Positions 2,824-37,323 of a stretch of 64,000 nucleotides of DNA are shown one piece after another (within the stretch, counting starts at the first letter, position 1; each line of letters opens with the position of its first letter). The DNA is from Planctomycetota bacterium (GTDB taxonomy: Bacteria; Planctomycetota; Phycisphaerae; Phycisphaerales; SM1A02). Below the pieces are notes generated by a model. It saw only the letters and a program-made list of their open reading frames with translations. It ran no database searches and was not told where the DNA came from. The stretch covers positions 62,001 to 126,000 of the forward strand of contig JAIOPG010000005.1 in NCBI GenBank assembly GCA_021414025.1. The letters are read 5' to 3'. The position numbers and the translations under genes are program-made.

Positions 2824-3447
2824 TCAGACGTTGGGGTTTCGAAGTTCCCGCGCCTGCGGCAGGTCCTCAATGCGTGAAATGCCGAAGACCCGCAGGAACT
2901 CCGTCGTGGTTCCGTAGAGCATCGGGCGGCCAAGTTCCTCCGCGCGTCCCGTGATCCGGACCAGGCGCCGCTCCATCAGGCCGCGCAGCACATCACCGCA
3001 CGCGACGCCGCGCACTGCTTCGAGCTCGGAGCGCAGCACGGGCTGGCGGTAGGCGATGATCGCCAACGTGTCCAGCGCCGCGGGCGAAAGGCGCCCCTGC
3101 TGGCGGTCGCCGTGCACACGGGTGAGCAGTGGCGCAAACTTGCCCAAGGTGAGCAACTGCCAGCCGCCGGCCAGGCGCTCGACGCGAAAACTTCGGGCGG
3201 AGGCCGCGTACTCGGAATTCAGCTTGTCGATGGCTTGGCGCACCAGCGCAGTGGCGGCCTTGTCCTTTGATCCGGCGGATTCAAGCCCCAGAAATTCGAC
3301 CAGCTTGGCCTCGCTCACCGGGCGGCTGACGGAAAGCAGCACGGCCTCGACCCGCGACTCAAGCGTCTGATCGGCGCAAGGAACTTCGGCGGGCTCGGGT
3401 GCGAACGCGGCGGCTTCGGGTTGCTCAGCGATTTCTTGGATTTCCAT
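2824..3447 (-). CDS. scpB: Segregation and condensation protein B (ScpB)
   Basis: 207 residues. ScpB is the winged-helix kleisin-associated subunit of the Smc-ScpA-ScpB complex that compacts and separates chromosomes. The typical opening (LESRVEAVLLSVSRPVSEAKL) and the conserved core (SPAALDTLAIIAYRQPVLRSELEAVRG, read around residues 120-145) are both present, followed by the second winged helix with the RPMLYGTT block. The Shine-Dalgarno AAAGGTGA precedes the ATG. An acidic, Pro/Ala-rich N-terminal extension of about 25 residues is unremarkable for the family. It is the last gene of a minus-strand run starting at 6658, 64 bases after atpC. ScpA is not in the window. Confidence 0.93.
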   Translation of the reverse strand: MEIQEIAEQPEAAAFAPEPAEVPCADQTLESRVEAVLLSVSRPVSEAKLVEFLGLESAGSKDKAATALVRQAIDKLNSEYAASARSFRVERLAGGWQLLTLGKFAPLLTRVHGDRQQGRLSPAALDTLAIIAYRQPVLRSELEAVRGVACGDVLRGLMERRLVRITGRAEELGRPMLYGTTTEFLRVFGISRIEDLPQARELRNPNV

Positions 3448-3511
3448 GCATCACCTTTGTGCCGCTCTGGGAAGGGAACGGGCGGCAGCCGAATCTACCA
3501 CTTTGCAGCGG

Positions 3512-3940
3512 TCAGGAGCGCTGTTCGGCGCGTAGGCGCGAGGCGTTGACCTTGGCCTGGGCGACGCGCTGGGCGCGCTCGACCGTTTCGCGGGCCGCGG
3601 GCGAAGTGAATCCCGGTGCGATCGCCTTTTGATTCGCGTCGGCCAGCGCGGCCGCGGCCTGCTTGGCGTCGATGCTGGCGATCTCATGGGTGTTGTCGGT
3701 CAGCAGGGTCAGGTTCTCCCCCTGCATCTGGGCGAAGCCCCCATCGGCCAGAAGCTGTCGCTTCGAGCCGTTGCCGGTGGTCACGGTCAGCACGCCGGTT
3801 CCCAGCTTCGTGAGGAAGGGGCTCGCCCCGGCAATCACTCCGACCTGTCCATCCCACGCTTCAAACGAGACGTAGGTCGCCTTTTCATCGAGGCTGATGG
3901 CGTTGGGGGTCACGACGGTGCAATGGATGCTTGTGGCCAT
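3512..3940 (-). CDS. atpC: F-type ATP synthase epsilon subunit
   Basis: 142 residues, normal for the family. It has the N-terminal beta-sandwich of epsilon (IHCTVVTPNAISLDEKA, then GQVGVIAGASPFLTKLGTGVL and the LLADGGFAQMQGENLTLLTD block) and a C-terminal helical hairpin (AAAALADANQKA to the Arg-rich end). Epsilon belongs to the central stalk of F1 and couples or inhibits rotation. A GGAG ribosome site precedes the ATG. It is usually the last gene of the atp operon next to atpD, but here its neighbours are a CYTH protein and scpB, and no other atp gene is in the window, so it is either detached from its operon or a second copy. Confidence 0.9.
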   Translation of the reverse strand: MATSIHCTVVTPNAISLDEKATYVSFEAWDGQVGVIAGASPFLTKLGTGVLTVTTGNGSKRQLLADGGFAQMQGENLTLLTDNTHEIASIDAKQAAAALADANQKAIAPGFTSPAARETVERAQRVAQAKVNASRLRAEQRS

Positions 3941-3983
3941 GGGTGGAACTCCGGGGCGGGGATGTTAGCAGGGTTTGGCCGGG

Positions 3984-4484
3984 CTATTTGGGCATTCCAT
4001 GCAGCGCCAGGGCGTGATTGCGGTAGCGCGGGTCGTGCGAAACCTCGCGGAGGATTTCCGGCGCAAGCCACTTGGGAAAGACGCAGGGCGCCCCTTCGCT
4101 GGGGAGTTCAACCTCGGCCATGACCAGTGGCAGGTCGAGAAACTGGTCAATTTCCCAAATCAGTCCCGCCTCGGCCACGCGAGAGCGAATTTTCCGGATG
4201 CGCTTGGAAAGTGTCTCAGGCCAGAGCCGCTCGAATTGGGCCCGGTCCAGGGCGCGCTCGATTTCCTGACGCACCACGCCGCTGCCTTGCTTGACCGTGT
4301 GAAAGAATTCGGCGGATCCGTCGGCATGCTCGACCGAGCGAATCCTTCCTTCGCGAAATTCGGCGTCGTCCACCGAGTGCTGGGGCAGATAGCCCTGGTG
4401 AATTTTCCAGACCACGGCGCCGTCCGGCAGGCGAGGCATCGCCCGAAGGATCCAGACCCGTTCGATTTCCTGTGCGGAGCCCAT
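3984..4484 (-). CDS. CYTH domain protein
   Basis: 166 residues. CYTH enzymes form a beta-tunnel that binds triphosphate substrates through acidic and basic residues, and act as adenylate cyclases, thiamine triphosphatases or inorganic triphosphatases. The signature opening ExExK appears as EIERVWIL at residues 6-13, with the lysine position changed. Downstream the family pattern of alternating charged strands is visible: FHTVKQGSG, RQEIER, WEIDQFLDLPLVMAEVELPSE. The start follows the holB stop by 6 bases. The exact substrate cannot be deduced; bacterial proteins of this length are often inorganic triphosphatases. Confidence 0.8.
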   Translation of the reverse strand: MGSAQEIERVWILRAMPRLPDGAVVWKIHQGYLPQHSVDDAEFREGRIRSVEHADGSAEFFHTVKQGSGVVRQEIERALDRAQFERLWPETLSKRIRKIRSRVAEAGLIWEIDQFLDLPLVMAEVELPSEGAPCVFPKWLAPEILREVSHDPRYRNHALALHGMPK

Positions 4485-4490
4485 GGATGC

Positions 4491-5603
4491 TCAACGCGAC
4501 GCGACGGCAACGCCCACCTGGCTCCAGGCCGCCACCAGCGACGCCAGCACCAGCTTCAGATTGACATTGGCCCGCACCGCTTCCTCGAAGTTGTCCAAGG
4601 TGAGCATGGCTCGCTGCGTCGCGTCGAGTGCCTCGCGATCGCCGGCGTTTGCCGCGGCGTGCAACTTCTGCCGCAGATGAAGTCCGGCAAGTCGGACCAG
4701 CATGCTGACCCCCTGGCGGTTCGCGGCGTCCTTGCTCGCGTTCTCGTTTTCCTTCACCAGAAGCTCCGCGTACTCCTCGGCGCACTTGGCCATTTCTTCT
4801 GCCAGGGTTGGCGGAAACTGACCCTGATCCAATTGCTTGAATTGCGGATGCAGCGATTGCCACCATCGATGCAATCCGAACTTCGCACCCAGCAGAGCCA
4901 GCCCGGGGCTGCCCGCCGCGAAGGAACGGAGCCAGGCGCGCTCGGCGTCGCCGGCCTTCCAATCCTGCCGCGACTCCCACTGCCGCATCGCCTCATCGGA
5001 GAGCGGGCCGAACCCCACCCTATGACAACGGCTGCGAATGGTGGGCAGCAGGCGGTCCTCGCGCGAGGTGACCAGGAAGAGATAGGTCCCCAGCGGCGGC
5101 TCCTCGAGCGTCTTGAGCAGGACATTTTGCGCCTCGCTTTCAAGAAGCTCGGCCTCGTCGATCACGAACACCTTGGCCCGGCCGCGGGCCGGCGTGCGCT
5201 GCACCGCGGAATCCAACATGCGACCCTCACCATCCACACCGCCGATGAGCGTTTCACGCAGAAGGTCCACCGGAATGTTGAGCTGCTTGCGCTCCCGCAG
5301 CTCGCGGCTCTGGCTCACCGCCGCCAGTTCCTTGCGAATCACGATGAAATCCGGGTGGGTTCCCGCGTCGAGCAGCGTCGCGTCCTCCGTGCCCTCGGGC
5401 GGCGCGAACGCCGCGATGTCGGCGGGCGCTGTTTCGGGGTCGAGCACCAGGCCCGCAAAAAGGCGGGCGGCCAGCGATTTGCCAACGCCCATCGGGCCGT
5501 GCAGGATCCAGGCGTGATGCAGCCGATCTCGGGCGAAGGCCCGCGTCAGGGCGGCGATCGCCCTCGGCTGGCCGATCAGCGGACTCGGACCTCCATGGGT
5601 CAA
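4491..5603 (-). CDS. holB: DNA polymerase III delta-prime-like clamp-loader subunit
   Basis: 370 residues. AAA+ clamp-loader ATPase domain with Walker A GPMGVGKS (about residue 36), Walker B VFVIDEAELL followed by QNVLLKTLEEPP, and the SRC motif in TIRSRCHRVGF. Together these identify the DnaX/HolB family that loads the sliding clamp. The zinc-finger cysteines of DnaX are absent and the protein is short, which favours delta-prime over tau/gamma. Translation most likely starts at a TTG whose last two bases overlap the preceding TGA stop (TTGA). An insert of about 50 residues (APPEGTED to GVDGEGRML) separates Walker A from Walker B. Co-transcribed with the CYTH gene. Confidence 0.85.
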   Translation of the reverse strand: MTHGGPSPLIGQPRAIAALTRAFARDRLHHAWILHGPMGVGKSLAARLFAGLVLDPETAPADIAAFAPPEGTEDATLLDAGTHPDFIVIRKELAAVSQSRELRERKQLNIPVDLLRETLIGGVDGEGRMLDSAVQRTPARGRAKVFVIDEAELLESEAQNVLLKTLEEPPLGTYLFLVTSREDRLLPTIRSRCHRVGFGPLSDEAMRQWESRQDWKAGDAERAWLRSFAAGSPGLALLGAKFGLHRWWQSLHPQFKQLDQGQFPPTLAEEMAKCAEEYAELLVKENENASKDAANRQGVSMLVRLAGLHLRQKLHAAANAGDREALDATQRAMLTLDNFEEAVRANVNLKLVLASLVAAWSQVGVAVASR

Positions 5604-6658
5604 CGCGGAATCTCGATCAAGACACAGGGCTTGGGAGTGGGTTTCGCGTTGGGCAGCCCGCGCGGCGGCGGCTCCAGCAGCGGCTCGCCGTTGACCAGCA
5701 TCACGGGAAACTTCTTCATGATGCGCTCGACATCCGGATGGAAGAGCGTGCTCCGCGCGTCGTAGGCCGTCGAATCGAAGACGCCGATGGTGACGGTGCT
5801 CGAGCGGTCGTCGGCGTCGTGCTTCACATAGGACTCGAGCCCCTGCAGGCGCAGCTCCGCGCAGTAGGCCTCGGCCTTCTTCTGGATGTCCGCGAAGGGT
5901 ATCTCACCGCTCTTGAAATCACTCCAGGTGGCGACCTTGACGGTGAACAGCGGCACCACATTGGGGAAGCGCGCCCGCACCTTGGACAGGTCATATTGCT
6001 TTGCCTGCGATTGCGGCGACGTGGTCTGCATGCGGACCAGATAGGCGCGGGCGAAAGGTCGCACTCCGTTCTCCTCGATCTCCTTCACCATCTTGATCGC
6101 GGGCTTTGACTCGGAATCATCGAGGCCGGCGAAGCTGCCGTAGACAATGGCGCTTCCCTTGTCGAGCGCGCAGACGCGCGCGGCGGAAAGCTTGGGATAA
6201 CGAGTGACGATGGCTTCTCGCATGGCGCCGGCCGCGGCGGCGTGTCCCTGTTCGGTGAAGGTCATCAGCAGCACGGACCACTCGGGTTTTTGCTCGTCAT
6301 TGGCGGCGGCATTCTTCCCATCGGAGGGCGGCGGGACGGGCGTCGCCGGAACTGCGACTGCTCCCTTGCCGGCGGTCTTTTTCTTCGCGTTGCCCCTGGG
6401 GGCGGAGGCGTTCCCATCCACTTCGTCGCCCTCGTTCATCAGCTCGTTGTTGGGATCGGGCTTGCCGCTGCTGCCTTTGGGGGCGCCGGTCGGCGGGGCA
6501 GGCGGTGTCGTTGGAGGCGCTGACGGAGGAGCGCTCGACGCGGCTAAAACCGGCGCCGAGAGAAGGCACAAAATGACCGCCATTTTGACAGTGAAAACGC
6601 ACTTTGAAAGGCGTCTCAAGGGCAGTGTTCGCGGCAAGTTAAAGAATTTATTTTGCAT
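5600..6658 (-). CDS. Exported Pro-rich protein with SPOR-like repeats
   Basis: About 352 residues from the ATG at 6658; an internal ATG just before MAVILCLL is an alternative. There is an N-terminal signal sequence (core AVILCLLSAPVLA), then a Pro/Ala/Gly-rich linker of about 70 residues, then a folded region with two stretches that resemble SPOR modules: PEWSVLLMTFTEQGHAAAAG and, later, FTVKVATWSDF with AEAYCAELRLQGLESYVKHD. SPOR domains bind denuded peptidoglycan, so a periplasmic cell-wall role is possible. The match is by pattern only and could be another alpha-beta fold. First gene of the minus-strand run; it overlaps holB by four bases. Confidence 0.55.
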   Translation of the reverse strand: MQNKFFNLPRTLPLRRLSKCVFTVKMAVILCLLSAPVLAASSAPPSAPPTTPPAPPTGAPKGSSGKPDPNNELMNEGDEVDGNASAPRGNAKKKTAGKGAVAVPATPVPPPSDGKNAAANDEQKPEWSVLLMTFTEQGHAAAAGAMREAIVTRYPKLSAARVCALDKGSAIVYGSFAGLDDSESKPAIKMVKEIEENGVRPFARAYLVRMQTTSPQSQAKQYDLSKVRARFPNVVPLFTVKVATWSDFKSGEIPFADIQKKAEAYCAELRLQGLESYVKHDADDRSSTVTIGVFDSTAYDARSTLFHPDVERIMKKFPVMLVNGEPLLEPPPRGLPNAKPTPKPCVLIEIPR

Positions 6659-6808
6659 CGAAATTCGTTCAAGATTGGAAGCGGAAGTGGTCGATTCTAT
6701 CCTCACGGGAGCGGATTGCCGCGACCATGTTTACAGACGCAGGAAGCGTTCGCCACACCTGTCTGAATCGGCTCAAAGGATTGACCCGAAGACGACAAGG
6801 AGTTTCTC

Positions 6809-7105
6809 ATGCCTGATATTTCCCCGATCAACAGTTTGCAGGGTGGTTCTGTCCCCGCTTCGATCCAGCGGGCGCAGATCGATGCCCCAGCCGCGGCCAC
6901 GCCCAAGCGGGCCGAGATCCATGATCGCGTGGAAATTTCGGAGCACGCCCGCCATCTCGAAAAGCTTCGCCAGACCCCGGACGTGCGGCAGGCCAAGATC
7001 GACGCCGCCCGGACTGAAATCGCCCAGGGCACCTACGAAACGCCGGACCGGCTTCGGGCGGCCCTGCTGCGGTTGCTCGACGAGATCGATCCGAGCCAGG
7101 CCTGA
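6809..7105 (+). CDS. flgM: FlgM-like anti-sigma-28 factor
   Basis: 98 residues, the normal size. FlgM holds flagellar sigma-28 inactive until the hook is finished and FlgM is exported. The family signature is clear: DRVEISEHARHLEKLRQ, then PDVRQAKIDAARTEIAQGTYETPDRL, matching the C-terminal sigma-binding half (VSLSxxA, RxEkIaxLkxaIaxGtY). The N-terminal 35 residues are low-complexity, as usual. A strong AAGGAG ribosome site lies 8 bases before the ATG. No other flagellar gene is in the window, so it may serve a distant flagellar regulon or another sigma factor. Confidence 0.82.
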   Translation: MPDISPINSLQGGSVPASIQRAQIDAPAAATPKRAEIHDRVEISEHARHLEKLRQTPDVRQAKIDAARTEIAQGTYETPDRLRAALLRLLDEIDPSQA

Positions 7106-7213
7106 AGCCGGTTCAATCCCCTGCCGCCTGACTGGAATTTGAATTTCCAGGGGCTGTTTCATTTAAAAGATGGGGCTCCGCCCTCTACCATCGCGGTTCC
7201 TGCAGGAGTTCCC

Positions 7214-30016: not shown

Positions 30017-31183
30017 ATGGTCCTCTCCAGTCAAAGCATTCGTTCGGACAGTCGTCGGTTGATGTCAAGCGACGGGCGGCGCGGCCGCGGCCGTGGATGG
30101 AAGTTCCTGGCGCTGCTGGCGATCGTCGGTGTCGGCGTCTGGCTGGGCTGGCGCTACCTCGGATCGTCGCCGGAGATTCCCGCGTCGGAGGTTCGCCATG
30201 ACGACGACACTTCGAAGACATTGATTTCCCAGGGGCCCAAGCCCGGGGAGGTTCCGCTGGAGAACAAGTCCTCGACGAGCACCACCCCCTCGCTCTCCAA
30301 CGCCGTGATCGGCGAGGAGAAGCCCGCCGCGAATCCCGCGCCGGCGGAAACGAAGAATTCCGCGGAGCCGGCCACCACCACGCAGCCTGAGGTGAACGCA
30401 CCGGACGACACGGCCGCGGTGAACTCCGCGCTGCAGGCGGCACTGGCCCAGATCGACAGCGATCCCGTCCGCGCCCGCGACGCGCTCACGCGCCTGCTCG
30501 AAGGCTCGGCCATCTCGCCGGCGGATCGGCTCAAGGGATACGAAGGCATCAACAAGGTCAACGCAGTGCTCACCTTCAGCGAGCGCGTGCTGGCCAACGA
30601 TCCCTACGCGCAGCAATACACGGTCAAGGAGGGCGACTCGCTCTCCAACATCCGCAAGGCTTTGAACCTGGACTGCGAGTGGCGCTTCCTGCAGCGGATC
30701 AACCATCTGGCCACCGAGCGGTCAATCCGCGTCGGCCAGGTGCTCAAGGCTCCCAAGGACGCCTTCCACGGTGAGGTGCGCAAAGCGGAGTTCCGCCTGA
30801 ACATCTTCGAGGGCGACGGCCCCAAGCGGGTGATGGTGGCGAGCTATCCGATTTCGCTGGGCGAGTTCAACAGCACGCCGACCGGTGCGTTTGCGATCCG
30901 GCCTCGCAGCAAGCTCATCGATCCGGAGTGGCGCAATCCGCGCACCGGCGAGCATTTCCAGAGCAACGATCCCAAGAACCCGATCGGCGAGCGCTGGATC
31001 GGCCTCAAGGGAATCGAGCCGCACAACAAGGCTTTCGAGGGCTACGGCATCCACGGCACGATCGACCCGGGGTCGATCGGCCAGCAGGCGAGCATGGGGT
31101 GCATCCGCATGTACCCGCAGGATGTCGAGGTGGTCTACGAGCTGCTGACTGAGCCGAACTCGATCGTCACGATTGCTCCGTGA
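30017..31183 (+). CDS. LysM-domain L,D-transpeptidase (YkuD family)
   Basis: 388 residues from the ATG at 30017 (373 from 30062). An N-terminal membrane anchor (FLALLAIVGVGVWLGW) follows a basic segment; a long Ser/Thr/Pro linker leads to a LysM module (YTVKEGDSLSNIRKALNL to RVGQVLKAP) and then the YkuD catalytic domain. The latter has TPTGAFAI, the active-site His in GYGIHGT and the catalytic Cys in SMGCIRM. Such enzymes form 3-3 peptidoglycan cross-links or attach proteins to the wall. An active cell wall fits with glmS nearby. It stands 9 bases after the cyclo-ligase gene. Confidence 0.9.
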   Translation: MVLSSQSIRSDSRRLMSSDGRRGRGRGWKFLALLAIVGVGVWLGWRYLGSSPEIPASEVRHDDDTSKTLISQGPKPGEVPLENKSSTSTTPSLSNAVIGEEKPAANPAPAETKNSAEPATTTQPEVNAPDDTAAVNSALQAALAQIDSDPVRARDALTRLLEGSAISPADRLKGYEGINKVNAVLTFSERVLANDPYAQQYTVKEGDSLSNIRKALNLDCEWRFLQRINHLATERSIRVGQVLKAPKDAFHGEVRKAEFRLNIFEGDGPKRVMVASYPISLGEFNSTPTGAFAIRPRSKLIDPEWRNPRTGEHFQSNDPKNPIGERWIGLKGIEPHNKAFEGYGIHGTIDPGSIGQQASMGCIRMYPQDVEVVYELLTEPNSIVTIAP

Positions 31184-31189
31184 TTTGAT

Positions 31190-31230
31190 CGCTTTGCAGA
31201 AAGCGGTGACCCCAGTCGCTCAGAGCAAAT
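31190..31230 (+). repeat. Diverged partial copy of the 130-base hairpin element
   Basis: 41 bases beginning CGCTTTGCAGAAAG and ending CCCAGTCGCTCAGAG repeat, with several changes, the first ~38 bases of the full copy that starts immediately after it at 31231. It looks like an old tandem remnant. Confidence 0.7.
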
Positions 31231-31362
31231 CGCTTTGCGAAAAGAAGTAGCCCCAGTCGCTCAGACAACGCTCCGGGCTCGCAGACTCGCCCTGCGCTAA
31301 ACTCGCTTTGTGGGGCTACTTCTTTTCGCGACGCAGGAATTCCAGATCGCCTGGTGATAGCA
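31231..31362 (+). repeat. Structured repeat element, copy A
   Basis: 132 bases, nearly identical to copy B at 35701-35834 and in the same orientation. The outer arms GCGAAAAGAAGTAGCCCCA (31237-31255) and its exact complement (31311-31329) give a 19-base-pair stem. Inside is a second small hairpin with GGGC/GCCC arms. Relative to copy B there is an A-for-G and T-for-C change on the two sides of the outer stem and one missing G and one missing C on the two sides of the inner stem; both changes preserve pairing. It lies between the L,D-transpeptidase gene and the 3' end of the pseudokinase operon. Confidence 0.92.
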
Positions 31363-31397
31363 ACCCACTCACTGCGCACAAACAATTTCGCCCCGAC

Positions 31398-32852
31398 TCA
31401 TGGAACGGGGACGCGCACTCCGTCCGAGTTTTCCGGACTCTTTCGGGTACGGGGAGGTCCACCACGAAGGGTGAATGGATTTGAAGGTATGGGCAGAGGC
31501 TTGTACTCAGGAAGTTTTGCGGCCTGCTCAGCGGTCAGGATTCCGCGAATGGCCATGACTGTTTTTTCCTCAACCTTTTCCCTCCGATGAAGCAGCGCCT
31601 TGAAGTCATTTACATTTTTATCAAAGTCCTCGCCGGTGAACGTTGTTGAGGTGAGCTTCCAATGCTTCATCATCAATTCTTCAAACGCGCGATTCAGCGT
31701 TTCAACTCCCTCGGCCCTCTCAACATCTAATGACACAACCACCGCTGCCTCGGCTTGACCAAGATCGGGGAGATGTCGAGCAACTTCCAATGCATCCAAC
31801 CCGGAACCCCGCTCCGTCGGAACTTGCGGAAACATCAACTCGCGAGCTCTCCAGATGAAATCTTGCCGCTTGTCTTCGGCCAGGGATGCGGCGATTTTTG
31901 GCAGCCAGCGGAGACTCGACTCGGCACGTAGGAACTGTGACGTTTCATTCTTCGCTTCCAAAGTCGTTCGTTCATCTCGAATGGTTTGATTCGAATCAGG
32001 ATCTTTTGCCGCCTCCATTTTCTCCTGCAGGATGGCGGCCTCGATGCGTGATTCAAGGAGCGATTCTGTGAAGCGCTTGGAAAAAGGAGTGATCTCACTC
32101 CAATATTGCTGAACTACTTGCTTCGCCTCCTCTCGCAATTCATTCGCTTCAATGGCTTCGATGTAGGGCAATGCGAATAACCCTATGTCAATTCTGGCCG
32201 CCACGAAAAAGGGGACAACATCCGAACATCGTGCTCTCCACCTTCCGGCTTCGAAGAGAGTTTTCGCCTTTGCGCGAACCTCCAAATCGATCGCAACACC
32301 AATCTCATCGCATCTCGCGTCGATTTTGCCCAATGTTGCTTTCTCCGTCTCATCGCGCAGTTTTAAGAACTGGCGGATCGCCTGATACATAGTTGCTTTC
32401 ACGCTCGCCGAATCACGCGGCGCCGATCTGACTGCCTCCATTTCCGCTTCCGACATTCCAGCAGACATCACTCTGTTGCTTCGAGGGCCGATGCTGGGAG
32501 TTGCTTCTTCTACAAGCATCCGATCCTTCTCCATGCTTTCCTCGATGAGCTTGTCGAAAGCGGATCGGTTTTCCTCAGGTACTCGAATCGCCAACAGGTA
32601 TTCGCGATAGTCCCGTGCAGACGCTGGTCTCCACGTAAATTGAACGCCTCCAAATTTCACCATCATGACATACGGTCTGCTTACCACCTCTCCGATGACC
32701 ATGAAAGGATCGCTCGGCGCTGTCGCGTCATCCGTCACGGTCGCGGTATCAGGTGGCGATGCTGGCTTATTCGAAACTTGCGGCCTTGCGTCATCGCCGT
32801 AGGCAACAGCACAACTGAGGATGAACGGAATGATGGAGATTGGTGGCTTCAT
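31398..32852 (-). CDS. Exported protein of unknown function, paralogue of its upstream neighbour
   Basis: 484 residues with an N-terminal signal peptide (PISIIPFILSCAVAYGDD). No known family was recognised. It is clearly related to the protein at 32849-34231: both have DPFMV-GEVVxR near residue 50, AxDYRxYxxAIxVPxExR, a central RWRARCSDV block, QQYWxEITPxSK and a closing ILTAEQAAxxPEYKPLxIPSNPF. The LTAEQ-type C-terminal helix is reminiscent of the LTxxQ motif of Spy/CpxP periplasmic proteins, but this is only a resemblance. The body is helical and charged. Coding G+C is visibly lower than in the paralogue. Overlaps it by ATGA; last gene of the operon. Confidence 0.75.
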   Translation of the reverse strand: MKPPISIIPFILSCAVAYGDDARPQVSNKPASPPDTATVTDDATAPSDPFMVIGEVVSRPYVMMVKFGGVQFTWRPASARDYREYLLAIRVPEENRSAFDKLIEESMEKDRMLVEEATPSIGPRSNRVMSAGMSEAEMEAVRSAPRDSASVKATMYQAIRQFLKLRDETEKATLGKIDARCDEIGVAIDLEVRAKAKTLFEAGRWRARCSDVVPFFVAARIDIGLFALPYIEAIEANELREEAKQVVQQYWSEITPFSKRFTESLLESRIEAAILQEKMEAAKDPDSNQTIRDERTTLEAKNETSQFLRAESSLRWLPKIAASLAEDKRQDFIWRARELMFPQVPTERGSGLDALEVARHLPDLGQAEAAVVVSLDVERAEGVETLNRAFEELMMKHWKLTSTTFTGEDFDKNVNDFKALLHRREKVEEKTVMAIRGILTAEQAAKLPEYKPLPIPSNPFTLRGGPPRTRKSPENSDGVRVPVP

Positions 32853-34231
32853 GATGGCGGCGCCGGGAGCGGCCGGGCGGTGAAGGGATTCGATGGGATC
32901 TTCAGCGGCTTGTACTCGGGGAAATTGGCGGCCTGCTCCGCGGTCAGGATTCCGCGGACGGCGTTGTAGGTCTTCTCCTCAAGTTTCTCGCGCTGAACGA
33001 GGAGCTCCTTGTATTCGGCCTTGCCCTTCTCGAATTCCTGCTTGTTCCCGCCGGAGAACTGGGATCTCCAATAGGTCATTAACAGGGCGTCGAACTTCTG
33101 ATCGAGGGCTCCGATCGCATCGGAGCGCTCCCGGCCCAGCGCGGCGATCTTCGCCTTCTCGGCTTCGCCCACGCTTGGAAGATTGACCGCGAACCGGACC
33201 GCGTCCTGCCCGACTCCCTTCTCCGAGGGCACCTGCGGGAACATCAAGTCGCGCGCCTTCTCGATGTAGTCCCGGCGCTCCGCCTCGGGAAGCGCCGCCG
33301 CGATCATGGGCAGCCACTTGAAGTTCGCTTCGGCGCGCTGAAAGAGCGGCGCCCCCTTTCGCATTTCGCACTTGCGAATCTCCGCCCCCAGTGTCGCCTT
33401 GTCCCCGCCCTTCTCCAGTTTGTCGCGCAGACTCAGGATCTCCATCGACATCAGGGAGTTCAATTCGACGGCCTCCTTGGAAGTCGGCGTGATCTCCCGC
33501 CAATATTGCTGAAGGACGCGCTTCGCCGGATCACCGCCCTCCTTCATGGAGTCGATGACCGGCATCGCGAGTAACCCGATGTCGATCATGCACGCGGTGA
33601 CGGGATAGGAGACATCCGAGCAGCGAGCCCTCCACCGCGCGGCCTCGAAGGAGCGCCTGGCGCTTTCGCGCGCTGCCGGATCCAGCGTGATCCCCAGCTC
33701 GCCGCAGCGGGCGTCGATCTTGTCCAGCGTGTCCCGCTCGGCCTTGTCGCGGGCAATCAGGAATTGATGGACGGCCTGACGCATCGCCAGCTGCACGCCG
33801 GGCGGATCCGGCGCGTAGATGGCGGCCTTCTGCGCGTCCGTCATGTCCGGCGTGATTTGCTTTCGCATCGGCGGTCCCATGCCGGGAGCCGAGTCATCGA
33901 TCAACTTCTGATCCGCGACCGCGCTCTCGACGAAGAGCTCGTCGAAGGAGGGCCGGTACTCCGCGGGAACCTGGATCGCCGTCACATAGGCGCGGTAGTC
34001 GTTCGCGGAGGGCGGCCGCCACAGCGAGACCACGGGCCCGGTCTTCACCTTCAGCGCATAGGTCCGGGTCACCACCTCGCCGACGACCATGAAAGGGTCG
34101 GCCGGAGCTTGCGCCGCGCTCGTGGCATTCGCCGGCGCCGACGACTGCCCCTGGGGTTGCGCCCATGCGTCGTTGTTGAAGGCGATCGCGCAAGCGACGA
34201 GGATCGAAATGATGGAGAGGGATCGAATCAT
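32849..34231 (-). CDS. Exported protein of unknown function, paralogue of its downstream neighbour
   Basis: 460 residues. Signal peptide (SLSIISILVACAIAFNNDAWA). Shares its whole length with the protein at 31398-32852 (landmark blocks DPFMVVGEVVTR, RWRARCSDV, QQYWREITPTSK, ILTAEQAANFPEYKPL), with scattered identities, so the duplication is not recent. Predicted largely alpha-helical, periplasmic or surface-exposed. The only cysteines I noted are those in the ARC and GEL-adjacent RCGE motifs, also conserved in the paralogue. Middle gene of the operon, four-base overlaps on both sides, so its output is probably tied to the membrane kinase-like protein upstream. Confidence 0.77.
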   Translation of the reverse strand: MIRSLSIISILVACAIAFNNDAWAQPQGQSSAPANATSAAQAPADPFMVVGEVVTRTYALKVKTGPVVSLWRPPSANDYRAYVTAIQVPAEYRPSFDELFVESAVADQKLIDDSAPGMGPPMRKQITPDMTDAQKAAIYAPDPPGVQLAMRQAVHQFLIARDKAERDTLDKIDARCGELGITLDPAARESARRSFEAARWRARCSDVSYPVTACMIDIGLLAMPVIDSMKEGGDPAKRVLQQYWREITPTSKEAVELNSLMSMEILSLRDKLEKGGDKATLGAEIRKCEMRKGAPLFQRAEANFKWLPMIAAALPEAERRDYIEKARDLMFPQVPSEKGVGQDAVRFAVNLPSVGEAEKAKIAALGRERSDAIGALDQKFDALLMTYWRSQFSGGNKQEFEKGKAEYKELLVQREKLEEKTYNAVRGILTAEQAANFPEYKPLKIPSNPFTARPLPAPPS

Positions 34232-35616
34232 GGCTTTCCCATTCTGGGTTTGTTGAGTTCGTCCGGCTTGTTGATCGTGTTCATCTTGTCGAATGCATCC
34301 ACCTGCGCGTGACGGACCTCCCGCTCTTTGAGCAGCGTCCGGGTGGAATAACCCAGGCCGATCGCCAGCGCGGCCACGACGATGGCCAGGGCGGCGACCG
34401 CGAGCTTGTGGCGGCGGACCACTTTCCGCAATCGATACATGGTGTCGGGCGGATGCGCCATGACCGGCTTGTGGATGAAGAATCGCTGGATGTCAGCCGC
34501 CAGTCCGCCGGCGGATTCGTAGCGGCGGCCGCGGTCCTTCTCCAGCGCCTTCATCACGATCCAGTCCAGATCGTCGCGGAGCACTCCCGGCAGCTTCGCC
34601 GCATCGACGCTCCGGGCCTTGGCGGCGGCGTTCAACTCCGCCTCGGCCAGCGATTGCATGCGGTAGGAAGGGGGCGGCGGTTCCTTTTCGCGGATCGCCT
34701 TGATGATCTCGTCGGAAGTGGTCCGGTGCATCTTGCCCGAGGGGAAAAGCGTCTGTCCGGTCAGCAATTCATAAAGCAGAACTCCGAGCGAATAGATGTC
34801 GCTGCGCGTGTCGATGTCCAAGCCGCCCAAGCCCACCTGCTCGGGGCTCAAGTAGGCCGGCGTGCCGATCATCTGCTCGTGGGCGGAGAAAAGCGTCGGG
34901 TCGGCCCGACTCTGGTGAATGGCTTTGGCGATGCCGATGTCGATCACCTTGGGCACGGCCGCGCCATCGATCACCGAGATGATGATGTTCGAGGGCTTGA
35001 GGTTGCGATGGACGACGCCCTTCTGGTGAGCGTGCTGCACGGCGCCGCAGACCTGCACGAAGAGGTCGAGCCGCTGACGGATGGTGAGCTTGTGCGCGTC
35101 GGCGTACTCGGTGATCTTGACGCCGCGCACCAGCTCCATGACGAAGTAGGGCCGCCCCGTCACGGTGGCGCCGCCATCCAGGATCCGGGCGATGTTGGGA
35201 TGGTCCATCGCCGTCAGCGCCGCGCGATCGGCCTCGAAACGGGCGAGGACATTGCGGGTGTCCATGCCCAGCTTGATCAGTTTCAGGGCCACGCGGCGGT
35301 GATTCGGCGCCTCCTGCTCGGCCAGGTAGACCACGCCGGTGCCGCCGGCGCCGATCTGCTGGAGAATCTTGTAGCGGCCGATGCGGGCGCCGGAATTTTC
35401 GGCAGACAGGGCTTCATCGGCGTTCGCCGCGGGCGCCGGCGAATGCCTGGGGTAGGTGGCGGCACTGTCGCGGGCCTGGAGCATCGCCTCGATGCGATGC
35501 CGAAGCGCGTCATCACCCTGGCAGGCCTCCTTGAGAAAAGCGATTTGCTGCCGTGGCGTGGCCAGCTGCAGCGCGGCGTTGAGAAGGGATTGCTCTTGTT
35601 CCGTGGGTGGACTCAT
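34228..35616 (-). CDS. Membrane-anchored Ser/Thr kinase homologue, probably a pseudokinase
   Basis: 462 residues from the ATG at 35616 (an in-frame extension to 35697 is less likely). Order: N-terminal helical segment (LLNAALQLATPRQQIAFLKEA), kinase domain, one membrane helix (LAVAALAIVVAALAIGLGY), and a short outside tail of about 40 residues. The Gly loop GAGGTG, VALK lysine, DTRSDIYSLG and SPEQ are intact. Three key places differ: the helix-C Glu appears as Asp (FEADR), HRD reads HRN with Asn205 (codon AAC) in place of the catalytic Asp, and DFG reads DIG. ATP binding is plausible but phosphotransfer should be weak or absent. It lacks the WD40/TPR outside domain typical of planctomycete kinases. 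First gene of a three-gene operon between two structured repeats. Confidence 0.85.
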   Translation of the reverse strand: MSPPTEQEQSLLNAALQLATPRQQIAFLKEACQGDDALRHRIEAMLQARDSAATYPRHSPAPAANADEALSAENSGARIGRYKILQQIGAGGTGVVYLAEQEAPNHRRVALKLIKLGMDTRNVLARFEADRAALTAMDHPNIARILDGGATVTGRPYFVMELVRGVKITEYADAHKLTIRQRLDLFVQVCGAVQHAHQKGVVHRNLKPSNIIISVIDGAAVPKVIDIGIAKAIHQSRADPTLFSAHEQMIGTPAYLSPEQVGLGGLDIDTRSDIYSLGVLLYELLTGQTLFPSGKMHRTTSDEIIKAIREKEPPPPSYRMQSLAEAELNAAAKARSVDAAKLPGVLRDDLDWIVMKALEKDRGRRYESAGGLAADIQRFFIHKPVMAHPPDTMYRLRKVVRRHKLAVAALAIVVAALAIGLGYSTRTLLKEREVRHAQVDAFDKMNTINKPDELNKPRMGKP

Positions 35617-35700
35617 GTCGTAACCGACCGTTTGATACACGACGCATCGTAATGGAACAAGCGTGACGGTCTGGCGCAGAAATTCCCGTGCCGACATTGG

Positions 35701-35834
35701 CGCTTTGCGGAAAGAAGTAGCCCCAGTCGCTCAGACAACGCTCCGGGGCTCGCAGACTCGCCCCTGCGCTAAACTCGCTTTGTGGGGCTACTTCTTTCCG
35801 CGACGCGGGATGTCAAACTTGCCTGGTGATAGCA
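35701..35834 (+). repeat. Structured repeat element, copy B
   Basis: 134 bases, direct copy of the element at 31231-31362. Outer arms GCGGAAAGAAGTAGCCCCA (35707-35725) and complement (35783-35801), 19 base pairs; inner hairpin GGGGC/GCCCC (35743-35764 region). The 3' end GCCTGGTGATAGCA is also shared. It sits in the divergent spacer between the kinase operon (start 35616) and queF (35881), a place where a terminator makes no sense for the flanking genes. Confidence 0.92.
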
Positions 35835-35880: not shown

Positions 35881-36246
35881 ATGCCCAAGCCCGGTTGCCT
35901 CGAATTCTTCGACTCTCCCACGGACAAGCCCTTCGTCATCGAGCACGTGAGCGACGAGTTCACCAGCGTCTGCCCCAAGACGGGGCACCCGGATTTCGGA
36001 TCGGTCACGCTGCGCTACGAGCCCGCGGCGGTGTGCGTGGAGCTCAAGAGCCTGAAGCTCTACTACCAGAGCTTCCGCAACGATGGGATCTTCTACGAGG
36101 CCGTGACCAACCGCATACGCGATGACCTTGCGACCGCGATGAGCCCGCGCTGGATGCAGGTCATCACCGAGTGGAAGGGCCGCGGCGGAATCCGCAGCCG
36201 CATCGTCGCCAGCCACGGCCAAGTGCCCGCGGCGTGGGTGAAATAA
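35881..36246 (+). CDS. queF: NADPH-dependent preQ0 reductase (QueF)
   Basis: 121 residues, the unimodular (YkvM-type) form. QueF reduces the nitrile of preQ0 to the aminomethyl group of preQ1 in queuosine synthesis. The catalytic Cys lies in SVCPKTGHPDFG and the QueF motif ELKSLKLYYQSFRN follows at about residue 56. FYEAVTNRI and the TEWKGRGGI end also match. Other queuosine genes are not in the window. It starts 46 bases after repeat copy B. Confidence 0.93.
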   Translation: MPKPGCLEFFDSPTDKPFVIEHVSDEFTSVCPKTGHPDFGSVTLRYEPAAVCVELKSLKLYYQSFRNDGIFYEAVTNRIRDDLATAMSPRWMQVITEWKGRGGIRSRIVASHGQVPAAWVK

Positions 36247-36258
36247 GATCGCGCCCCG

Positions 36259-37323
36259 ATGACCCACCTGCTCGCCGAAAGCCTGCTGCACTCCAGCACT
36301 CCGTTCGCACTGCGGATGGGCAGCGGCTTCGGCATCCGCTGGTATGGCCTGGCCTATGCCGCGGGTTTCCTGGTGGCGTGGCTGCTAATGCGCTGGATGT
36401 CCGTTACGCGGCGCTCGCCCATGAGCCGGTCGCAGGTGAGCGACTTCCTCACCTGGGCCGTGCTTGGCGTGATCGTCGGCGGGCGCGTCGGCCACGTGAT
36501 CTTCTATGACCACGCCCTGCTCTGGACATTCACCAGCGAGTTTCCATTCTGGGGGCTGCTGTTCATTCACAAGGGCGGCATGTCCAGCCACGGCGGCATC
36601 ATCGGCGTGGTGATCGCGGTCTGGTGGTGGTGCCGGCGCAACCAGATGCACTTCACGCATCTCACCGACCTGACGGCATGGAGCTGCTGCATCGGTCTAG
36701 GTTTGGGCCGCTACGCCAACTGGATCAACGGCGAGCTGTGGGGAAAGCCGCTGCCGGTTTCGATGCAGGCGGAGAGCCCATGGTGGAGCGTGAAGTATCC
36801 CGAGGAGCTGCTGCGGCCCGGCGTGATCAGCGAGTCGACGCTGCTGCTGCTGAAGCCGCTGGTGCCGGCTTCAAGCGCGACGGTCGCGGCGGGCATGCAG
36901 GTGGCGCCGATTTCGGTGACGGGAGCGATCGAGCGCGGCAACACGGCGGAGATGCTCTACGCGGCGTGCTACGGCGGCGATGTGGCCGTGCGGGCCAAGG
37001 TGGCGCAGTATCTGGTCGCCTACTACCCGAACAACTTTCTGCAGGCGATCAGCGACGGCGTGGTGCTCTTCGCGCTGCTCTCGCTGGTGTGGCTGAAGCC
37101 GCGCAAGCCGGGCGTGATCACGGGATGGTTCTTCCTGGGCTACGGCACGCTGCGACTGGCCACCGAGCAGCTGCGCGAGATTGATCCCGGCGTGTTCATG
37201 ATCGGGCCCGCGACGCTGCCGATGCTCCTGAGCATGGCGATGATGGCGGGCGGCGTGGTGATCTGCATCGCCAGCAGCCGCCGCGCGATGCCGACGGTGG
37301 GCGGGTTGCTGCGGACGAACTAA
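36259..37323 (+). CDS. lgt: Prolipoprotein diacylglyceryl transferase (Lgt)
   Basis: 354 residues, an integral inner-membrane enzyme that attaches diacylglycerol to the lipobox Cys of prolipoproteins, needed by the several lipoproteins in this window. Motifs in order: IRWYGLAYAAGFLVAW, GGRVGHVIFYD, HKGGMSSHGGIIGVVIAVWWW, GRYANWINGELWGKP (the Lgt signature), and YGTLRLATEQLREID at the end. An insert of about 80 residues between the signature and the last helices (AESPWWSVKYPEELL to AVRAKVAQYLVAY) is longer than in proteobacterial Lgt. It starts 12 bases after queF; its stop overlaps the stop of the convergent ppgK (CTAA). Confidence 0.94.
   Translation: MTHLLAESLLHSSTPFALRMGSGFGIRWYGLAYAAGFLVAWLLMRWMSVTRRSPMSRSQVSDFLTWAVLGVIVGGRVGHVIFYDHALLWTFTSEFPFWGLLFIHKGGMSSHGGIIGVVIAVWWWCRRNQMHFTHLTDLTAWSCCIGLGLGRYANWINGELWGKPLPVSMQAESPWWSVKYPEELLRPGVISESTLLLLKPLVPASSATVAAGMQVAPISVTGAIERGNTAEMLYAACYGGDVAVRAKVAQYLVAYYPNNFLQAISDGVVLFALLSLVWLKPRKPGVITGWFFLGYGTLRLATEQLREIDPGVFMIGPATLPMLLSMAMMAGGVVICIASSRRAMPTVGGLLRTN

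Follow-up and report, generated by a model that had tools for sequence, protein, structure and literature searches.

Cargo carried between copies of a repeat is known from composite transposons, in which it lies between sister copies of one repeat and relatives have empty sites, and from integrons, whose cassettes stand beside attC sites that form single-strand hairpins and vary in sequence as long as pairing is kept. Dispersed, non-coding palindromes are known as repetitive extragenic palindromes (REP/REPIN) and as repeats of the miniature inverted-repeat transposable element (MITE) type, and the parts of the literature available to us link REPs to RAYT/TnpA-REP. Here we describe an operon bracketed by two palindromic elements in a 64,000-nucleotide stretch of the genome of a Planctomycetota bacterium of the order Phycisphaerales (GCA_021414025.1, contig JAIOPG010000005.1, positions 62,001 to 126,000; G000:C5:62001-126000 in our numbering), hereafter the window, which belongs to an assembly of 2.8 Mb that is 97.5% complete. 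The operon encodes a membrane kinase homologue and two predicted exported proteins, P3 and P2 (Table 1). We tentatively read element, operon and element together as a lineage-specific insertion of about 4.6 kb, whose cargo would be a pseudokinase signalling module with two exported proteins, a reading that we hold to be a serious possibility while stopping short of calling it probable.

The three minus-strand open reading frames are joined by 4-base overlaps and so probably form a single operon, and by eye no other gene lies between the two elements, which share their orientation and are 92% identical over query positions 7-140 in a nucleotide search. An earlier reading made from the letters of the window alone (the sequence-only reading) had noted three overlapping genes placed exactly between two near-identical elements, and the open reading frames and elements are as it described them. 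The elements are also the sole two full copies in the window, although an additional half-element adjoins the first of them.

The argument for insertion comes from the congeners. The L,D-transpeptidase (Ldt) and QueF-like genes that flank the block are adjacent, 45-181 bp apart and with neither operon nor element between them, in every congener that carries both flanks on one contig (8 of 15: G002, G004, G005, G006, G010, G011, G012 and G015), and the empty site in relatives that is asked of a composite unit is thus present in 8 of 8 informative genomes. The remaining 7 of 15 comprise G001, where a different exported gene separates Ldt from QueF; G007, whose contig ends after related genes downstream of Ldt; and five uninformative genomes. 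Moreover, the two window elements are sister copies, being 95% identical to each other, whereas neither exceeds 87% identity with any of the other 11 full copies of the genome.

Several observations weigh against arrival as a bracketed block, among them the exported genes found at other Ldt and QueF loci, to which we return below. None of the 8 empty sites retains an element, and simple element-to-element recombination is consequently not demonstrated by them; the intergenic sequence is too diverged for a target-site duplication to be read; and neither the Y1 transposase nor YhcG has a match in the genome, these two being the mobilisers searched for, to the exclusion of other transposases. A neighbour of the P2/P3 type accompanies the related kinase in 0 of 12 fetched loci, some of them truncated by contig ends, and the trio was not seen to recur. 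As regards the cargo proteins, neither P2 nor P3 matches the Pfam family LTXXQ at E up to 10, and the fold match of P2 described below falls within the range of common helical bundles (Z under 13). Finally, in simulation at least one element pair within 5 kb arises by chance in 25% of genomes like this one. This last result (a chance of ~0.25) favours a reading in which the two elements are unrelated insertions of a busy repeat into both gaps, beside an operon with a separate history, as do the 13 places that the element occupies in the genome and the seemingly mostly intergenic position of its copies (by eye). We nevertheless consider that account unlikely, as the two copies are sisters with a common tail, pairs around genes recur in two congeners (G002 and G008), and a second empty site exists in G005.

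Gain of the operon as a cassette bracketed by elements is, in our view, plausible but unproven. The proposal of the sequence-only reading that the genes moved as a unit is borne out by the absence of the operon from 8 of 8 congeners, by the sister elements and by a second bracketed block with an empty site, but not by the empty sites themselves, of which 0 of 8 hold the single element copy that it had expected. That reading had also named scattering of the element independently of the operon as evidence against a cassette, and for the element as such this is what we find, at 13 places in the genome and in 9 of 15 congeners.

The second bracketed block lies in G002:C61, where two tandem genes with FGE-sulfatase domains are set among three elements, the third of them inverted, and where the unit of element and gene is duplicated (87% over 1841 bp). 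At the corresponding site in G005:C51 the aligned flanks lie ~60 bp apart, the block is absent and no element is left. Element pairs around genes recur in G002 and G008, although these two genomes have much of the FGE-sulfatase block in common and are not independent cases. Across nine element genomes, simulation yields 1.8 expected pairs within 5 kb versus 8 observed (P 0.0004); the genomes are related and the pairs not independent, the G006 pair is a tandem whose second copy is weak, a single triple accounts for three of the pairs, and G010, with its single copy, is left out of the count. We regard the bracketing of genes by elements as suggestive, not proven. In the window's own genome a tandem gene duplicate (L281 3777-6058; 82% over 947 bp) has an element between its two copies.

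P2 and P3 are 46% identical paralogues, and no Pfam family is matched over its cut-off by either. Strong matches to P2 occur in 1 of 41 genomes and strong matches to a P2/P3 profile in 1 of 397 genomes of the class, in both cases the window's own, while a pattern drawn from the P2/P3 alignment retrieved 56 stretches and 0 relatives from a set of public genomes that may not include the window's own. Through weak matches in 9 of the 397 class genomes we reached a superfamily whose members are predicted to be exported and helical; most have ~420-500 or 840-980 residues, and two weak members have about 250. Searched against a set of 84 sequences, a profile built on 14 of the long members, taken from QueF and Ldt loci, recovers P3 (1.1e-13) and P2 (2e-10). 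Six shorter members yield a profile of similar power (2e-12 and 6.7e-11 for P2/P3), and hhalign aligns columns 63-450 with the second half of the long members (a one-template E-value). One member of the superfamily (L160:4643-6010) passes the Pfam LTXXQ cut-off (PF07813; 33.3 vs 24.3). By profile comparison, P2 and P3 are thus members of a class-wide, predicted helical superfamily that reaches LTXXQ, and the earlier description of two exported paralogues of no recognised family stands as regards Pfam and their paralogy, but not as regards their isolation. Shorter superfamily members at L160, L164 and L166, tandem in the first two, lie beside genes that by eye are type II secretion- or pilin-like. 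P2 and the kinase gene resemble their neighbours in GC; P3, despite its 46% identity to P2, is sharply unlike it (Table 1).

This superfamily raises the alternative that part of the operon could be an old resident of the slot between Ldt and QueF. Under this scenario, P2 and P3 would descend from a resident exported gene in an ancestral order of Ldt, gene, QueF and Lgt, which was inverted, split or duplicated, was joined by the kinase and was lost from sister lineages, with the elements coming later. The slot between Ldt and QueF indeed holds a superfamily gene in G001 and, judging by a weak match (E 7e-4), also in G385, and in G007 related superfamily genes follow Ldt before the contig ends. 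Of 40 family loci, 12 have a superfamily gene by QueF, that of G385 (L199) included; the distance is 1.5 kb in one of the 12 (L198), and contig ends truncate two of them. A superfamily tree was built from 23 rows, all of which were retained and eight of which are long, with neither the G007 gene nor the partial L207 and L216 genes among them. In it, six other members form a supported clade that excludes P2 and P3, whose shortest paths lead to the QueF-adjacent members, but this placement is weak (57/73), 5 of 20 inner branches are starred, and the tree leaves the choice between resident and arrival unsettled. Moreover, P2 and P3 lie on the opposite strand from their counterparts in G001 and G385, and they precede QueF, whereas at most of the other loci the superfamily gene lies downstream of it; a kinase was noticed at none of these loci, where no search for kinases was made; the profile of six other members recovers P2 and P3 about as well as that of the long members; and the composition of P3 is odd. 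The pairwise relation to the G001 and G007 genes is likewise hardly detectable (E 0.014 only in a single-pair profile comparison), and becomes clear only with the larger family. On balance we find a resident origin doubtful and favour arrival as a bracketed block.

The element itself is a strongly folding palindrome. Its single-stranded DNA fold reaches -35.9 kcal/mol (z -4.45), as good a value appears in 0 of 200 shuffles, and the hairpin is thus beyond chance. Nucleotide searches of the genome give 19 matches, corresponding to 13 full copies, and a covariance model built from these recovers the same 13 places (14 rows, one being the reverse strand of a copy). Among congeners, those with the element have 1 to 20 covariance-model matches each, whereas outside the genus none of 25 genomes has any, under stricter filters and with at most 95 candidates scored per genome, so that weak copies may escape; one exact form of the element gave 0 matches in public genomes, a set that may again lack the window's own. 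The outer stem has 20 pairs, of which 13 show two-sided changes (52 cells in total) and 0 show one-sided ones, with 96.5% of cells paired, whereas in the inner helices one change is two-sided, three are one-sided and lead to G-U, and one pair is mostly U-G. None of 500 shuffles reaches the observed covariation, although kinship among the sequences inflates that control. The loop is nearly constant within the genome, and congener copies have a different inner hairpin in the same architecture. Since the outer stem shows no change to G-U, we read the element as a DNA palindrome under selection or copying rather than as RNA, and it is a dispersed, non-coding palindrome that is probably mobile. A structured RNA was rejected on the same feature and because Rfam finds nothing between 30500 and 36500 even with the threshold relaxed to E 5. 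By eye, element copies seem mostly intergenic, and half copies and nested copies are common; L003, L004 and window positions 31190-31230 contain nested and chimeric half-elements, with one hairpin within the loop of another.

The kinase homologue is a clear member of its family (Pfam Pkinase, PF00069; 137 bits vs a cut-off of 31.7). Its ten best matches, 51-56% identical, come from other genera of the family and order, while congener kinases are 38-50% identical. In an alignment by eye, the Lys of VALK and the Asn that follows HRN are retained, and the protein carries HRN, DIG and an Asp at the helix-C Glu; among the marks of an active kinase, the Pkinase domain, the DFG Asp and the VALK Lys are present and the catalytic Asp of HRD is lost. 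Thirteen related kinases in the 12 fetched loci have both HRD and DFG; a fourteenth, much weaker match, in which a script found no HRD, was excluded from this count. The sequence-only reading had called the protein a pseudokinase from its HRN motif, and the further losses relative to the thirteen relatives support that prediction. The retained VALK Lys, DIG Asp and Asn after HRN would suit a kinase that is still active despite its HRN, DIG and helix-C Asp. However, the base Asp is gone where the thirteen relatives retain HRD and DFG, and the portion of PMC11032199 available to us counts this residue, together with the Lys and the second Asp, among those thought essential in kinases. We consider an active enzyme very unlikely.

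The fold of P2 offers a hint of the function of the module. Its AlphaFold model is of middling confidence (pLDDT 62.5), and VIA-align ranks NccX first of 498 chains (Z 8.2, root mean square deviation 3.9, 129 aligned; next row 7.8); for the C-terminal part CnrX (Z 7.4) and NccX (Z 7.3) come sixth and seventh, tied with designed bundles, and all Foldseek matches have E above 0.1. These modelled similarities hint at a CnrX/NccX-like fold. TGA factors, acyl-CoA dehydrogenases and designed bundles were taken as chance matches and rejected as structural relatives. If the bracketed insertion is accepted, the operon would most likely have arrived as cargo between the two sister elements, and this cargo would be a signalling module composed of a cytoplasmic kinase fold with one membrane helix and a short outer tail, together with two exported, presumably all-helical proteins distantly related to LTXXQ-type envelope proteins. 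P2 and P3 may detect a ligand or a state of the envelope and bind to the membrane protein, whose kinase fold would probably still bind nucleotide and signal by conformation or partner docking instead of phosphorylation. A sensor function for P2, P3 and the kinase is what we infer from these features.

A candidate mobiliser appears in the congeners. Two element-bracketed genes, one each in G002 and G008, encode YhcG (PF06250 with PF17761), and a family search of the 41 genomes gives 9 matches in the genus, in G002, G005, G008, G012 and G014, all of them element-bearing, and 0 in the window's own genome. A full element lies at most 1 kb from 6 of the 9 genes (L284, L285, L288, L291, L292 and L293, that of L288 being a gene fragment), on both sides in L285 and L291 and as one full copy plus one cut by the contig end in L284. 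Element remnants accompany L287 and L294 and none accompanies L286. Outside the genus YhcG has two matches, one of them under the family cut-off, and no element lies within 1.5 kb of either. The proteins fall into five variants with 28-40% identity between them, four of which have a full element nearby. The two elements around the L291 gene are identical and differ by 24-27 changes from seven other G002 copies, in a comparison that took in 9 of the 20 G002 matches. At L138 two identical elements (2979-3088 and 4515-4624) surround one YhcG gene, with a wholly different outer stem and a nearly unchanged loop. The idea that stem type reflects the specificity of one YhcG variant was rejected, as the relation is not one to one: one stem type accompanies three variants, and a different stem type accompanies a single variant.

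YhcG could be either the cargo or the mobiliser of the bracketed blocks. We know of no test of the role of YhcG/DUF1016 nucleases. The portion of PMC4316617 available to us reports DUF1016 genes in integrative elements, and among the papers listed in a literature search, mainly titles and abstract openings, we saw none connecting YhcG/DUF1016 to palindromic repeats. A far-reaching version of these ideas would be a genus-wide cassette system bounded by hairpins, in which sister palindromes with a variable outer stem and a kept loop delimit blocks of 1-3 genes (YhcG, FGE-sulfatase-domain genes, the pseudokinase operon) that are gained, duplicated or lost as units, and in which YhcG PD-(D/E)XK nucleases, of which four divergent variants occur next to the element, would process the hairpins and mobilise cassettes in trans; we think this quite unlikely. 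Were the brackets functional, they would offer a route for moving small gene sets between non-coding palindromic ends, in bacteria whose gene gain is poorly understood; YhcG/DUF1016 nucleases would acquire a testable substrate, and the cargo described here would be an unusual pairing of a pseudokinase with exported, helical, sensor-like proteins.

Table 1 Features of the window and of related loci, with their coordinates
Feature	Sequence	Position	Strand	Remarks
L,D-transpeptidase (Ldt; YkuD + LysM)	window	30017..31183	+	left flank, domain search
Extra 5' half-element, nested or tandem half copy directly before element 1	window	31190..31230	+	66% match to element start (31190-31236); similar half copies beside other genome copies
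Palindromic element copy 1	window	31231..31362	+	covariance-model match 31230-31336; tail common to copy 2 up to 31362
P3, predicted exported helical protein, 484 aa	window	31398..32852	-	GC 0.528, GC3 0.551, low vs neighbours
P2, predicted exported helical protein, 460 aa	window	32849..34231	-	paralogue of P3 (46%)
Membrane Hanks-type kinase homologue, predicted pseudokinase, 462 aa	window	34228..35616	-	HRN for HRD, DIG for DFG, Asp at helix-C Glu
AAC codon, Asn of HRN	window	35002..35004	-	direct sequence reading
Palindromic element copy 2	window	35701..35834	+	covariance-model match 35700-35808
QueF-like	window	35881..36246	+	right flank
Lgt	window	36259..37323	+	right flank
Long predicted exported helical gene by QueF	L084	3396-5942
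Long predicted exported helical gene by QueF	L199	4944-7505		also at 11 other QueF loci of 40
FGE-sulfatase-domain exported genes, tandem element-gene-element-gene-element block	L136 (G002)	3207-7205		counterpart L282 (G005) without block
YhcG-type PD-(D/E)XK nuclease gene	L285	597-2149
YhcG-type PD-(D/E)XK nuclease gene	L291	508-2153
YhcG-type PD-(D/E)XK nuclease gene	L284	1321-2849		also L288, L292, L293

Set beside the systems named at the outset, the block resembles composite transposons in its cargo between sister copies of one repeat and in the empty sites of relatives; however, its repeat codes for nothing, neither of the two mobilisers searched for was identified in the genome and no target duplication could be read. 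Like REP/REPIN and MITE-type repeats, the element is dispersed, palindromic with paired stem changes, non-coding and rich in nested half copies, but it is ~107 bp long, has a variable outer stem and a conserved loop, and brackets genes in pairs. A REP driven by RAYT was rejected as an explanation, given that the Y1 family PF01797 has 0 matches in the window's own genome and in the 9 congeners with the element, several of whose assemblies are incomplete. Hairpins beside cassettes, with sequence free to vary under pairing, recall attC sites, while no attC core motif or array was seen by eye and an integrase was not searched for. As for the cargo, it differs from envelope-sensing systems of the CnrYXH/NccYXH and CpxAP type (structures 4clv, 2y39 and 3zg1 in the fold comparison) in its Hanks-type pseudokinase partner and in the larger size, weak fold match and lack of a direct LTXXQ match of P2 and P3, and it shares with them the placement of an exported, helical, LTXXQ-like protein beside a membrane signalling protein. 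The window kinase likewise departs from the planctomycete pairs of extracytoplasmic function (ECF) sigma factor and Ser/Thr kinase in that it has no sigma-factor-like gene beside it, no repeat domain and no catalytic Asp, yet it is related to the kinase of such a pair, that of L266 in G031, which is 54% identical to it and follows an ECF-sigma-factor-like gene (recognised by eye, with no profile run).

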